From contig JAPDPT010000006.1 in the NCBI GenBank assembly GCA_034506315.1, forward strand, positions 30,011 to 94,010: a DNA stretch of 64,000 nt. Direction: 5' to 3'. The notes under the pieces are model-generated. The model made no database searches and was not told the DNA's origin. It worked only from the letters and a program-made list of their open reading frames with translations. Shown here piece after piece: positions 56,423 to 62,000 of this stretch. Position 1 is the first letter of the stretch. Every line of letters begins with the position of its first letter. The position numbers were made by a program, and so were the translations under genes. Source of the stretch: a candidate division KSB1 bacterium. Lineage in GTDB: Bacteria; Zhuqueibacterota; Zhuqueibacteria; Oleimicrobiales; Geothermoviventaceae.

Positions 56423-57298
56423 GTGGCTCAGGCTCGCGCTTTGCGGAGAATGCTTGGTTTTCTGCTTCGCCGCGCCCCCGTGGCGGTTCTCGTGGCCACT
56501 TTCGCAGGGGGGCAGAAGGTGTGCCCCCAGGATCTGCCCCGGGTCATGGAGCTCGCCTACGACGATGGCCAGCCCGTCGATACCCTCGATCTTGGGAACG
56601 CCAGCCTCTTTGGAATGAGGTTCAGCCCGCCCGCCTTCCCGGTACGCCTCCTGGCCCTGAAATACTTCCTTCGCGACACGACGCAAGGGACCAGCTTTCG
56701 GTTTTTCGTCCACCGGGACAACGCTGGGGAACCTGCCGATGTGATTTTCGGCCCCCTTGCCGGGGAGGGGGAAAGGAGGGGCTGGAACACGCTGGACTTG
56801 CGGCCTTTCGGCCTGGTGGTGGACTTTGACTTCCACTTCGTGCTCGGACTGGACGGGAAATCCATCCTCTATCTGGGGGCCGAGAATCGGGAGCCGATCA
56901 GCGGACGTGCGAGCCTCGGCGATTGCTGCGGCTGGTGGCGAGGAAATGTCGATCTGATGATTCGGGCCGAGGTAGAGCTGGTCTCGACATCTGTTCCCTC
57001 CTTCCCCTCGGAACCCAGATGGGGTCCAGTTCTATCGCCATTCCCAAATCCGACCAACGGCTGGGTCTGTCTCTTAGGCCACCTTCCCGCCGAGGGCGAA
57101 TCCGAGGTGGAAATCTGCGCCGTCGATGGCCGAGTGCTGCGGAGGTGGGCCCTGGCCGTTTCTGGCGGAAGTCCCTTCCGGCTGCTTTGGGATGGCCGGG
57201 ATGCGCGTGGCCGGGAGGTGCCGTCCGGGATCTATCTGGCCCGTCTCGTGCTCCGAGGAAAGGTCCTGGCGTGTAGGAAGCTCACGGTACTCCGGTAG
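56423..57298 (+). CDS. Secreted protein with T9SS/FlgD-like C-terminal domain, partner gene of the selenoprotein
   Basis: 291 residues: signal region (about 9-35), a beta domain of unknown function (about 40-190) of the type that starts LAYDDGQPVDTLD, shared by many T9SS-associated proteins, and a C-terminal FlgD-like sorting domain (about 205-291; SPFPNPTNG, SGIYLARLVL, final KLTVLR). A DCCGWW motif gives two adjacent Cys in the middle domain. GTG at 56423 is supported by GGAGG (56411-56415) and the promoter; ATG at 56450 is an alternative. Nine bases separate it from the selenoprotein gene. Confidence 0.8.
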   Translation: MAQARALRRMLGFLLRRAPVAVLVATFAGGQKVCPQDLPRVMELAYDDGQPVDTLDLGNASLFGMRFSPPAFPVRLLALKYFLRDTTQGTSFRFFVHRDNAGEPADVIFGPLAGEGERRGWNTLDLRPFGLVVDFDFHFVLGLDGKSILYLGAENREPISGRASLGDCCGWWRGNVDLMIRAEVELVSTSVPSFPSEPRWGPVLSPFPNPTNGWVCLLGHLPAEGESEVEICAVDGRVLRRWALAVSGGSPFRLLWDGRDARGREVPSGIYLARLVLRGKVLACRKLTVLR

Positions 57299-57307
57299 GG
57301 GCAGGCG

Positions 57308-59374
57308 ATGCGCCGGAACGGCGGTTGTTGGTGCACGTTGCTCTTGTCTGCGGGGGCGCTCTTTCTTTTAGCTGCTCCCGGTTGTCCCCAGGACCGACTG
57401 CTTCCCAGGGCCTCCCTCCGGCCGCAGGTCTCAGGCGGGCTGGCCATTGTGCACCTGCTGGATGTCAAGGTCGAGGGGCAACTTCTGTTCACGGCCGGAT
57501 ACGGCGGCCTGTCCATCTACGACATTGCCGACCTGGACGCGCCGAGACAGCTCTCGAATCTCAACCCCTTCCGGTCGGCGACGGAAACGTTTTACTGGCG
57601 GATGGCGGTCAGAGCTGACCATGTGTATCTCACGCGAAGGCAGGGCGGCCTGGATATCGTGGACGCCGCGGATCCGTGCATCCCACGCGTCGTCGGCAAC
57701 TACCGACACGAGGCGGTGGAGGGGTACGAAAGCGTAGCGGTGGCAGGCGACACCCTTTACCTTGCTGCCTATGGACAGGGCTGTGAAGTCGTCGATATCT
57801 CTGTACCCGATCAACCCCGGCACCTGGGATTTGTACCAGGCCTCCGAGTCTTTGCGGCCGCTCCCCTGGGGAAGACGCTCCTGGTCGCGGACATAGAGGG
57901 GGGCCTCCTGGTTTACGACGTCACGGACGTGTCGGCGCCTCGCCTGGTGGGGAGGGACTCGACCGCAGCCGGCGCACAATTCGTGGAGGTCTCGGGTGAC
58001 CTGGCCTTTCTGGCGATGGGTTCTGCCGGCGTGCGGATCTACAACCTGGACGAGCCGCAGAATCCCCGCTTGATTGCGCACCACCCTACTCTGGGGCCGT
58101 GCTTCCACCTATGCGCCGACGGGTCGTCCATTTACCTTGCGGAGGGGATGCACTGCGAGGTCTTGGACATCCAGGACCCCTGGCACCCCGTCCGGATGGG
58201 CAGGGAGCCGGCACAGGGATGGATCTCGGGCGTCGCGGCCCGTGGCCCCTGGGTTTTCCTCGCGGATTGGGAAACGGTGAACGTTCTGGAGCGAAGAACA
58301 GGTCTGGAACCGGATCTGCTGCTTTCGCCGTCGTTCCTTTGCTTCGGACAGTACCAGCCGGGAACGACCGAGTTTGGATTCCTGCGTTTCCGGAACGTGG
58401 GGAATGCGCCCCTATCGGTGTGGGGGATTCTCGCCCCGGGCTCCGTCCTTCCCCCAGAGCCGCATAGCTTTACCCTGGATTGCGACCAGGAGACGACCTT
58501 AGTGGTCCCGTTTGAGCCGGGAGAGGGAGCGCCTGCCCCAGTTCTCGACAGCCTTTGGGTTCGTTCCAATGATGCAGACGAACCAGCGCTCGCCGTGCCT
58601 GTGATTGCGGGCACTCGCGATTTCGGTCCGGGCGACCCTGCTCCCGATTTCAGCCTCGCGGAAGCAACCACGGGCGAGACGGTTCGTCTCTCCGATTTTC
58701 GTGGGCGACCCGTACTGATCACCTTCTTTGCGGGTTGGTGACCGGTTTGCGGTCCGCAGGTTGCGGATCTTGAGCACAACTTCTGGCGCACGTACCGCGG
58801 CCGGGGCCTCCAGGTCTTGGGTGTGAATCGGGGGCAGAGGGCGGAGGAGGTTCAGGCCTTTGCCCGGCGCCTCGGAATCACCTTCCCCCTGCTCCTTGAT
58901 CAGGACGCCTCCGCGTACCAGAAATACCAGGGCGACAGGACCCCGAGGATAGCGCCTTTTCCCCGGGACGTACTTGTAGACGGAAAGGGCCAAGTGGTCT
59001 ACTACAGCCGGATCTTTGAACCGGAAGCCCTGCGAGAGGCCATCGAGCAAGTACTTTGCCCCACCGGAGGAAGTGACCTGAAAGGCCGGGATGGGACGCC
59101 TGACGTGACCCTGTGGATTGGCCCGAATCCGGCGGCCGGCGCAGTAAGGATCCGCTTCTCACTGCCCACGAATAGCCTCGTTTCTCTCGCCATCTTCGAC
59201 TGTCGCGGACGGGAGATTGTGGAGCTGGCGAGGGAGTATCTTCCCGCAGGTACCCACCAGCTGCAGTGGGAAGGGCAGGGGCGCCAGGGTCTCCGTCTGC
59301 CGAGTGGGGTATACGTCTGTCGCCTCCAGACCAGCCGTGTGGCGAGATCGGCGAAGTTTGTTCTTTGGAGATGA
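57308..59374 (+). CDS. Secreted selenoprotein: LVIVD propeller, Ig-like, Sec-redoxin and T9SS-type sorting domain
   Basis: 688 residues if UGA at 58739-58741 is read as selenocysteine (U478). Signal peptide (about 1-26); six or seven LVIVD-type propeller blades (about 40-330, e.g. YGGLSIYDIADLDAPR, YGQGCEVVDISVPDQPR, LLVYDVTDVSAPR); an Ig/ASH-like domain (about 335-435); a TlpA/AhpC-TSA redoxin domain (about 440-592; GDPAPDFSL, LITFFAGW-U-PVC, FPLLLDQD, FPRDVLVD); and a FlgD-like sorting domain (about 598-688; IFDCRGREI, GVYVCRLQ, final KFVLWR). U478 replaces the first Cys of a W-C-x-x-C site, with C481 as resolving residue. Upstream and downstream parts are in the same frame, both protein-like, and a SECIS-like hairpin follows the UGA. 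If UGA stops translation, a 477-residue product without the redox site or sorting domain results. Confidence 0.9.
58739..58741 (+). other. In-frame UGA, predicted selenocysteine codon 478
   Basis: UGA lies directly after the Trp of the redox motif and before P-V-C, where relatives have Cys. It is the only stop codon in the frame from 57308 to 59374. Confidence 0.88.
58751..58769 (+). promoter_or_regulatory. Bacterial SECIS-like hairpin
   Basis: Nine bases after the UGA, an 8-bp stem (58751-58758 with 58762-58769, one G-U pair) closes a GGU loop. In E. coli fdhF the SelB-binding minihelix starts 11 bases after the UGA and shows GCA-GGUC-UGC at its tip; here the tip reads GCA-GGU-UGC. The bulged U of fdhF is not evident. 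Confidence 0.82.
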
Positions 59375-60521
59375 GAGAAGCCGGCCCGCCGATGGCCCGA
59401 TCGGACCGCCACGGGTCTCGTGCTTGCCCCACGGCCCTGAGCGTGGGGCGCAGATGGGTTGTGCCTGGGAGGTTCAGGGCTCTGTGCCGAAGAGCTGGGG
59501 AAAGGGTCGCTATTGTGGAGCGCTCTCCTTGATGGGGACGGAATGGCCTGGTCCAAGCCGGAGATTTGGAATCGTCGATTGGCCGTCGTGCTCGCTGGCT
59601 GGGGTCCTTCCGGCAGGGACATCCGTCCCTTATCGGGGCTGGGGTCGCGGCCGCAGCGAGGCAGCGATTCTCCGTAGGGAATCAAGAAAGCCGCCATCCT
59701 TTCTCGGGGGCGCGCCTGCCGTTTCCGGACAGGCGGCTCCTGGGGTATCCCGGGCACAAGAAACGCGCCCATGCCCTCCGGTGACCAGAACGGTCCCTCC
59801 TGTTCCGGTCACCCTCGAGGCCGCTACCAAGCGAAGAGACCCTCGGCAGGCTCGCGCCACGGAAACGATGGCGATTTCGACTGGGTGCACGGATTCTGGA
59901 TGGCTGGGTTCGTCCGGCGGGAGCCGCGATCGACGGCCCCGGGGTTCTTCGAACGGCCGCTCCGCCCCACGGGGTTTGGGGGCAAGCTCACGCCTGATTT
60001 CCAGCGATCTTCGCAGACGGGCGATAGGCATGTCGCCTCGACGGGTGGCGTGTTCCGCTCGGAGCCGCGGGTGGTCAAGAATGATGTCACTGCTCCGGCA
60101 GGACGCCGGGAAAGGAAGCCAGCTTGGTTCTTACGGCTGTCTCGCTTTCGATCGCCAGGGGCCTGCGGAGCCTTGTTCGATGGCTCCCCGGAAGCGAAGG
60201 ACCTTCTTGCTTTCCCCGGCCCGGAGTGTGGGCCTGAGTGGTGAGGTCGTCCAAGAACGTGACGGTAAATGGCGGCGCAACCCGCTCCAGAGCACAAGAC
60301 CGGAGAGGTTGGGCATAGCAGGAGCGGGGGCGGAGTTCTCACGCTTGAAGTTTCGGTATCTGGCCGGATGGCGGGCCCTTTGTGTGGATTCGCGTCCATC
60401 AGGGTGAGGGCGCCGGACGAGCGTCCCCCGTCCCGTGGCCGGCAGGCTGGGAGGAGAGGAGGCTGTTGCGCCCACGATGCGGGGTAGGGAGGTGAAGCGC
60501 ATCGAAAGCTTGGGGAGGAGA
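59375..60521. other. Gene-poor region with strong inverted repeats
   Basis: No recognisable gene in 1.1 kb. Open frames here are Arg/Pro/Ser-rich and look like chance products of high GC. Three clear inverted repeats occur: 59426-59433 with 59442-59449 (8 bp), 59713-59721 with 59726-59735 (9 bp, one bulge) and 59780-59791 with 59802-59813 (12 bp, one mismatch). None has a T tract. I looked for a tRNA (including selC) by T-loop pattern and found no foldable candidate. Confidence 0.6.
59780..59813. repeat. 12-bp imperfect inverted repeat in the gene-poor region
   Basis: Arms at 59780-59791 and 59802-59813 pair with one mismatch around a 10-base loop; a second hairpin (59713-59735) lies 44 bases upstream. 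A structured RNA or a factor-dependent end of the selenoprotein transcript are both possible. Confidence 0.45.
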
Positions 60522-62000
60522 ATGGAAAAGACGCCGTATCTCCAGCTTTTGGACCGTAAGCTACTTACGGAGATCTGGGAAGAAGCGCTGCGGGTCTTGG
60601 AAAAGGTGGGGGTTCTGGTTGACCATCCCGAGGCGAGAGAGCTGCTCCTCGAGGCCGGTGGGGAGGTTGTCGCGCGTAGCGGCCGAATCCGCATCCCGCC
60701 GCAGCTCGTGGAAAGGTCGCTGGCGACGGCACCCCGGCGGATCGAGATCTTCGACCGGGAGGGGAATCCCGTCGCGACTTTGGGTTCCAGCCCGTCGGTG
60801 TTTAACCCGGGTTCGGCAGCCCTCACGATTTTAGACTGGGCGACCCAGCGGCAGCGTAAGCCGGAAACGCAGGATCTGATCTCCCTGGCCAAGGCCAGCG
60901 AGAAGCTGGAACACATAGCTTTTCAGAGCACCGCGTTGATCCCGGGCGACGTGCCGCCGGAGATTTCGGACCGCTACCGCCTGGCCGTCGCCCTTCTCTT
61001 CTCGCGCAAACCTGTGGTGACGGGCACATTTCGGGAGGACGCCTTTGCCCCGATGTACGAGATGCTGCTGGCGGTCCGTGGGGGAAGGGAGGAGCTCAGG
61101 AATCGGCCGCTTGCCATTTTCGACTGTTGTCCCTCGCCTCCTCTCAAGTGGAGCCACCTTACCTGCCAGGCGCTTCTGGACTGCGCCCGCACCGGGGTTC
61201 CCGCCGAGCTGGTGTCCATGCCCCTGGCGGGTGCCACGGCCCCAGTCACGCTGGTCGGGAGCCTCGTCCAGCACACGGCCGAAACCCTGAGTGGTGTGGT
61301 GATTCACCAGCTTGCAGCCCCGGGTGCACCCATCATCTACGGGGGATCCCCAGCCGCGGTGGACCTGCGGACGGGCACGACACCCATGGGAGCGATCGAG
61401 ACAATGCTTCTCGACGTGGCCTACAGCGAGATCGGCCGGTCGTTAGGGCTGCCGACCCACGCCTATATGGGACTCAGCGATGCCAAACTGCTGGATGCCC
61501 AGGCCGGGGCAGAAGCGGCTCTGGGTGCGGTACTGGCGGCGCTGGCGGGGATCAGCGTCATCTCGGGGCCTGGGATGCTGGACTTCGAAAGCTGCTTCTC
61601 GCTCGAGAAACTCGTGCTGGACAACGAATTCTGTGGCATGGCCCTGAGAGCAGCCCAAGGCGTCCAGCGCCGCGACGCCGAGCTGGCCAGGGATCTCTAC
61701 GGCGATATCTCCCGCGGCGACTGGTTTCTCACCTCTGAGACAACTCTGCGCTGGTTTCGGGAAGAGCTGTTTTTCCCCTCGCGGGTCATCGATCGGGATA
61801 CGTACGAGAACTGGGTTAGAGCCGGGCGGACATCGGCAGGCGAGAGGGCGCACGCGCGCCTCCAAGAATTGCTGGAGAAGCCCGTCGCCTTCTTGCAGGA
61901 CGCCAAAGCCCAAGCTGTACTCCAGATCGTAGAGAACGAAGCCGAAAGATACGGATGCCGGTCTCTGCCTCTAAGGGCGAAGGCGACCGGTTTCGTCTGA
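60522..62000 (+). CDS. MttB-family (trimethylamine/betaine-type) corrinoid methyltransferase, non-pyrrolysine
   Basis: 492 residues from ATG at 60522 (GGGGAGGAG just upstream; GTG 60492 and ATG 60477 are alternatives). MttB superfamily TIM barrel: LRVLEKVGVLVDHPEA at the start, then IPPQLVERSLATAPRRI, VFNPGSAALTILD, DCCPSPPLKWS and PIIYGGSPAAVDLRTGTTPMGAIE. No in-frame amber codon, so it is of the non-Pyl type, like the glycine betaine methyltransferase MtgB. It would move a methyl group from a quaternary amine to a corrinoid protein; no corrinoid protein or activating enzyme is in the window, so substrate is open. Confidence 0.9.
   Translation: MEKTPYLQLLDRKLLTEIWEEALRVLEKVGVLVDHPEARELLLEAGGEVVARSGRIRIPPQLVERSLATAPRRIEIFDREGNPVATLGSSPSVFNPGSAALTILDWATQRQRKPETQDLISLAKASEKLEHIAFQSTALIPGDVPPEISDRYRLAVALLFSRKPVVTGTFREDAFAPMYEMLLAVRGGREELRNRPLAIFDCCPSPPLKWSHLTCQALLDCARTGVPAELVSMPLAGATAPVTLVGSLVQHTAETLSGVVIHQLAAPGAPIIYGGSPAAVDLRTGTTPMGAIETMLLDVAYSEIGRSLGLPTHAYMGLSDAKLLDAQAGAEAALGAVLAALAGISVISGPGMLDFESCFSLEKLVLDNEFCGMALRAAQGVQRRDAELARDLYGDISRGDWFLTSETTLRWFREELFFPSRVIDRDTYENWVRAGRTSAGERAHARLQELLEKPVAFLQDAKAQAVLQIVENEAERYGCRSLPLRAKATGFV

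Follow-up and report, generated by a model that had tools for sequence, protein, structure and literature searches.

We have found, in a 64,000-nucleotide stretch of DNA (the window, by which we mean the whole stretch analysed), a gene whose reading frame runs across a UGA at the active site of a redoxin domain, and this UGA is very likely decoded as selenocysteine (Sec), because it is conserved down to 27% protein identity and is followed by a predicted RNA hairpin. We consider it likely, on the joint weight of the sequence evidence, that the product is a selenoprotein decoded by SelB with a SECIS element, exported to the cell surface by way of a tail resembling those of the type IX secretion system (T9SS), and active there as a thiol-disulfide oxidoreductase. 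The domain order is a predicted signal peptide, an LVIVD propeller, an Ig-like domain, a ResA/TlpA-like redoxin and a FlgD/T9SS-like tail.

The reading frame and the conservation of its UGA

The gene occupies a frame of 688 codons that opens with ATG at 57308 and holds one internal TGA, at codon 478, in the context F-F-A-G-W-U-P-V-C-G. The features of the gene and its neighbours, in window coordinates, are:

56423..57298, + strand: upstream neighbour of 291 aa, a probably exported protein whose FlgD-like tail is weak (16.3 bits, cut-off 27)
57308..59374, + strand: 688-codon gene for a probable selenoprotein, with UGA (Sec) as codon 478 and a closing TGA at 59372-59374
57308..57388, + strand: predicted signal peptide, about residues 1-27, hydrophobic from residue 11 (Kyte-Doolittle mean 2.55)
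57398..58303, + strand: LVIVD beta-propeller, residues 31-332, WD40-like in the model, with seven blades by strand grouping
58310..58573, + strand: Ig-like domain of ASH/choice-of-anchor-D type, about residues 335-422, of low model confidence (pLDDT 45-75 by block)
58625..59062, + strand: ResA/TlpA-like redoxin, residues 440-585, interrupted by the UGA (Pfam and structure matches)
58739..58741, + strand: UGA codon, probable Sec478, at the attacking position of W-U-P-V-C, aligned with the first Cys of CxxC in 2ls5 and in a ResA variant
58748..58750, + strand: Cys481, probable resolving Cys of UxxC, invariant in four orthologues
58751..58769, + strand: predicted SECIS core hairpin, 8-bp stem, GGU apical loop 17 nt past the UGA
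58961..58963, + strand: Pro552, by alignment the probable cis-Pro equivalent of the thioredoxin fold, invariant in six UGA redoxins
59120..59362, + strand: predicted C-terminal FlgD-like / T9SS type A sorting domain, residues 605-685 (profile matches and model)
60435-62000, + strand: downstream MttB-family (trimethylamine methyltransferase-like) gene (PF06253, 287 bits)

The upstream neighbour ends 9 bases before the Sec gene and has a counterpart in the same place in a second genome of the genus (G001, 60.7% identity). The MttB-family gene is a single frame without an internal stop.

The initial annotation had noted a UGA in place of the first Cys of a W-C-P-x-C-like site, and this is borne out by the TGA at 58739-58741 in W-U-P-V-C. 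Its count of 211 codons after the UGA needs correcting to 210 sense codons (479-688). Its proposal that the two halves together make one intact redoxin domain also holds, the best Pfam family of the read-through protein being AhpC-TSA (87.9 bits, residues 441-565), a match that spans the UGA. GC content by codon position is nearly equal on the two sides, at 0.70/0.49/0.72 before the UGA and 0.69/0.49/0.71 after it.

Among 82 phylum genomes searched, counting that of the window (G000), four full-length proteins of this architecture were found, all with TGA at the position of codon 478. The three orthologues are 56% (G001), 33% (G081) and 27% (G064) identical to the window protein; the last two come from other families of the class and read W-U-P-V-C-G-P at the site, again with TGA. 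Past the UGA, the G000 and G001 genes show 0.37/0.32/0.61 changes per codon position with 51% of residues kept, and this mostly third-position change together with the retained residues suggests selection at the protein level. Over the entire gene, DNA identity in 12-codon windows peaks in those that begin at codons 475-477. The in-frame UGA is thus conserved with coding constraint on both sides, as expected of a selenoprotein gene. The similar GC by codon position, the mainly third-position change and the TGA kept in all four genes confirm that the open frame across the UGA is real and not due to chance.

The initial annotation had suggested looking among relatives for Cys at position 478. 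Redoxin homologues do carry Cys at the UGA position. For the long architecture itself, neither a Cys form nor a homologue lacking the second half was found: no Cys form of it was found in the 82 phylum genomes, and two protein-database searches returned neither a Cys form nor a half-length homologue, an absence that is weak evidence because the candidates scored were the 7998 sharing most words.

The four long genes belong to a wider set. A search of the phylum with six redoxin domains, in which 14 matches marked TGA were inspected and the counts are lower bounds, revealed at least 13 UGA redoxins in ten genomes, at least nine of them with T9SS-like tails. Besides the long forms there are three short proteins with a tail (G002, G009 and G066), two tailed proteins of a second short type whose site is Y-U-P-x-C (G064 and G066), and four without a tail (G062, G055, G054 and one that closes a longer G009 frame). 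One further match, in G080, was rejected: a Cys occupies the site, and the TGA is the one that ends the gene. The group of the G062 protein has one UGA member and six with Cys, which come from other genomes, including G066. The second short type and the longer G009 frame are located as follows:

L102:414-1256 (G064), - strand: second-type short UGA redoxin with T9SS tail, G-S-Y-U-P-x-C (TIGR04183 35.8; 8 of 8 hairpin pairs)
L104:870-1712 (G066), + strand: second-type short UGA redoxin with T9SS tail, G-S-Y-U-P-x-C (TIGR04183 34.4; 7 of 8 hairpin pairs)
L105:about 1152-1541 (G009), + strand: UGA redoxin with the site P-T-U-G-P-C, closing a 478-aa frame (hairpin displaced by one base)

By eye, the first part of the 478-aa frame is TPR-repeat-like. 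In the G081 (L107) and G064 (L115) contigs Cys-type redoxin genes occur close to the long selenoprotein gene, which suggests local redoxin clusters.

Predicted selenocysteine insertion

In the bacterial SECIS model of a 2026 review (PMC13188914), the loop has 3-9 nt with G in the first two loop positions and the stem 4-16 bp, and the spacing is given in its section 5 as 16-37 nt and the MFE as -7.5 or below. The predicted window hairpin agrees with this model in its GGU loop, 8-bp stem, spacing of 17 nt and energy of -12.0 kcal/mol for the 25-nt core; the extended stem (58745-58775, + strand) reaches -13.7 kcal/mol. An Rfam scan of 56500-60500 gave no match at E up to 1.

Nine UGA redoxins form 6-8 of the 8 pairs at one fixed offset, with a three-base loop that starts 17 nt past the UGA, and seven of these genes reach -7.5 on the 25-nt core, the others (G066s and G062t) standing at -7.1. 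At the 17 Cys sites examined, just 1-4 of the 8 pairs are present at the equivalent positions in every case. In the nine-gene alignment 87.5% of cells are paired, against 16.7-51.4% for slid structures, and the covariation score is 0.628 versus 0.175 in shuffles, with none of 500 shuffles reaching the observed value, although both controls lean towards the stem because it was derived from these sequences, which are related. Six of the eight pairs have changed on both sides among the nine genes, with pairing in the predicted hairpin preserved. Of 2000 synonymous recodings per gene, 5 to 69 reach the energy observed in eight UGA genes and 285 do so for G001, whose hairpin has one broken pair; the corresponding range in the 14 Cys genes tested is 575 to 2000 of 2000. 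Four further UGA redoxins, none of them used to define the stem, served as a test set. Three have 7-8 of the 8 pairs and a GGC loop, the exception being the second G009 gene, with 3 of 8 pairs in register.

The initial annotation had pointed to selA, selB, selC and selD as genes to look for in the same genome, and all are present. SelB, searched for in the window's genome, scores 367 bits and has an adjacent tRNA-Sec with anticodon UCA, and SelA is a fragment covering 138 of 367 positions, cut by the contig end. The selD gene (L015:1531, G000:C51) has a UGA of its own in C-A-G-U, and a strong hairpin is predicted after it, with its GGA loop at +20. SelA exceeds its cut-off in 63 of the 82 phylum genomes, including all ten with a UGA redoxin. 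The tRNA-Sec model, run on nine of these ten (all except G054), gave seven clear matches of 62-70 bits. The best match in G001 (estimated 100% complete; 150 of 561 candidates scored) is a tRNA-Ser according to ARAGORN, and that in G064 (82% complete; 150 of 389 scored) a tRNA-Leu. The lack of a clear tRNA-Sec in these two genomes counts against the simplest picture. The tRNA-Ser(CGA) genes at G001:C2:55506-55592 and G000:C55:20613-20701 score just over the Rfam tRNA-Sec cut-off, and weak matches are therefore not to be counted as selC.

These data bear on other readings of the UGA. Were it a true stop, the product would be a 477-residue propeller protein and the remainder a relic or a separate gene, and the protein database does hold the window gene as two pieces split at the UGA (P0002 and P0095) and the G001 relative as a first piece (P0003). 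The in-frame UGA itself explains such an entry in two pieces, and since the genes are stored cut, homology surveys can miss the family. A stop is also difficult to reconcile with the protein-like pattern of change after the UGA, with the paired changes of the predicted hairpin, and with a second half that is intact and in frame in four of four genes, where termination would cut the redoxin in mid-domain; we regard it as very improbable. One base separates TGA from the Cys codons TGC and TGT, so that a sequencing or assembly error, a prospect already raised in the initial annotation, has to be weighed, but the same TGA stands in the separate assemblies of three other genomes and the hairpin is lacking at the Cys sites examined, which leaves the chance of an error negligible. 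A reading of UGA as Trp or another residue throughout the organism would account for the open frame and for nothing beyond it. TGA ends 18 of the 37 longest non-overlapping frames of the window (in a mechanical, uncurated list) as well as this gene, and the aligned residue in homologues is Cys; the probability of reassignment is likewise minute. On these grounds of protein-like change, hairpin, four intact frames, TGA terminators and aligned Cys, we rejected the frame-shift, pseudogene, split-gene and code-reassignment readings.

Domain architecture and predicted export

The initial annotation had proposed a structure prediction for the full 688-residue chain. In this prediction, made with Cys replacing Sec, the redoxin fits ResA to about 2 Å (TM on target 0.90, rmsd 1.9 against 2h1b_C), and the mutual fit of the domains is weak (pTM 0.60). 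The redoxin has the thioredoxin-fold pattern of a CxxC-type site, here UxxC, and a probable cis-Pro, the latter by alignment; its score against the ResA model NF002854 (65.5) is far under the curated cut-off of 170. LVIVD (PF08309) scores 46.7 bits against a cut-off of 20.2 and the predicted model shows a propeller fold; the VIA list bears on the propeller alone. The ASH match is weak in the window protein (19.3 bits, cut-off 27) and over the cut-off, at 37.1, in the G001 orthologue. FlgD_ig (24.8 bits) and Por_Secre_tail (20.3 bits) are both under the Pfam cut-off of 27.

A surface thiol peroxidase, in which Sec478 would reduce H2O2 or organic peroxides and Cys481 would resolve, is suggested by AhpC-TSA as the top Pfam family and by weak matches to the thiol peroxidase and PrxQ models. 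However, the peroxiredoxin motif PxxxTxxC, of which the Sec form is PxxxTxxU (PMC13188914), is absent, with I471 and A475 where P and T are expected; the best structures for the domain are ResA-type reductases, and UxxC is the layout of a disulfide oxidoreductase. We therefore judge a peroxidase unlikely, and take the predicted domain to be ResA/TlpA-like (UxxC) rather than a peroxiredoxin by motif.

The initial annotation had read the signal peptide and tail as a sign of surface export. This reading is supported, the N-terminus being hydrophobic by hydropathy and the same genome adding weight with both a translocon (SprA, 928 bits summed in frame) and a sortase (PorU, 868.5 bits). SprA is over its cut-off in nine of nine and PorU in eight of nine genomes searched. 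The assignment of the tail to the T9SS type holds less evenly: TIGR04183, the type A tail model, is passed by eight of the nine tail-bearing UGA redoxins and clearly so in the two distant orthologues (G081 and G064), but the window protein passes it marginally (23.1 against a cut-off of 23) and G001 is the exception, its tail not being listed. Type IX export would nevertheless be the best-supported route for the Sec protein because of these tail matches, the presence of SprA and PorU, and the many like tails in G000 and G001, where 71 and 65 matches, respectively, are nearly all to the T9SS-like tail. It is quite unlikely, to our minds, that the selenoprotein is instead periplasmic or anchored in the outer membrane by other means, with a tail that is a structural FlgD-like domain and no T9SS signal. 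The marginal and missing TIGR04183 scores in the window protein and G001 would fit that arrangement, as would the Pfam scans of six tail-bearing members, each of which scores higher for FlgD_ig than for Por_Secre_tail; the translocon and sortase genes, the abundance of the same tail and the eight passing scores argue against it.

Proposed function and comparison with known systems

In the type IX-exported oxidoreductase that we favour, SelB would insert selenocysteine at residue 478, guided by the predicted SECIS hairpin 17 nt past the UGA. The general secretory route would take the protein across the inner membrane and type IX secretion across the outer one, PorU would remove the tail, and the protein would then be attached or released. 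At the surface the Sec478 selenolate may attack a disulfide or other oxidised thiol of a substrate, which the propeller and Ig-like domains may hold or space, and Cys481 would resolve the mixed selenenyl-sulfide. As the UGA precedes the sorting tail, a chain ending at that codon would have neither a complete redoxin nor a tail. We raise as a tentative idea, more doubtful than the function itself, that the phylum has an exported selenoproteome served by type IX secretion, and that, since the UGA comes before every sorting tail in the coding sequence, delivery to the surface is gated by selenium supply, the propeller half being retained in the envelope when selenium is short.

Bacterial selenocysteine chemistry has mostly been discussed for cytoplasmic, membrane and periplasmic enzymes. 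If our reading is right, a conserved family addressed to type IX secretion places selenium-based redox reactions outside the cell, within a phylum in which SelA is widespread, and raises the questions of whether a type IX system accepts Sec cargo and whether a UGA placed before the tail couples surface display to selenium supply.

The first Foldseek match is PorZ (5m11), a T9SS surface component with propellers; at a TM of 0.33 and an rmsd of 27 Å this is no more than a domain resemblance, and it was not taken as homology. T9SS type A cargo (TIGR04183) shares the C-terminal Ig-like sorting domain with the window protein. Neither Sec nor a redoxin domain is expected in PorZ or type A cargo systems. 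ResA/TlpA proteins (1st9 and 2h1b; 2ls5 of Bacteroides thetaiotaomicron), which carry out extracytoplasmic thiol-disulfide chemistry, share the fold (TM up to 0.90) and a WCxxC site, but have Cys where the window protein has Sec and lack the propeller and sorting tail. NF041054 (WAxxUGC_long) and NF040769 describe, like the window protein, Sec-type or SelL-related redoxins, but with another motif, and the scores of 21.1 (cut-off 300) and 23.9 (cut-off 120), respectively, are far below their cut-offs.

Full-text searches of the open literature, a scope that leaves subscription papers and preprints outside, found no paper joining selenoproteins with type IX secretion, the matches looking unrelated, and none joining selenocysteine with LVIVD; in PMC12016528 and PMC13055991 the selenoprotein and type IX secretion terms stand in separate contexts, as far as the passages with these terms go. 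Among the terms T9SS, propeller, signal peptide, periplasm and surface, a search of the main text of the 2026 review (PMC13188914) found none. Its Table 1 comprises 119 prokaryotic selenoprotein families or subfamilies, including a Prx-like thiol:disulfide oxidoreductase (PF00578, UxxC) and a Redoxin family protein (PF08534, UxxC), both graded there as predicted with high confidence. The window protein resembles these two families in Pfam domains, in UxxC and in having Sec at the attacking position, and differs in its fused propeller, Ig-like domain and sorting tail, none of which the table gives for them. Because Table 1 lists such UxxC oxidoreductases and redoxins, the Sec class of the catalytic module, the UxxC redoxins, is already known. 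What is new is the predicted domain order and the set of putative selenoproteins addressed to type IX secretion: the same Sec chemistry would appear here in a new architecture and, if the predicted export holds, in a new cellular place.
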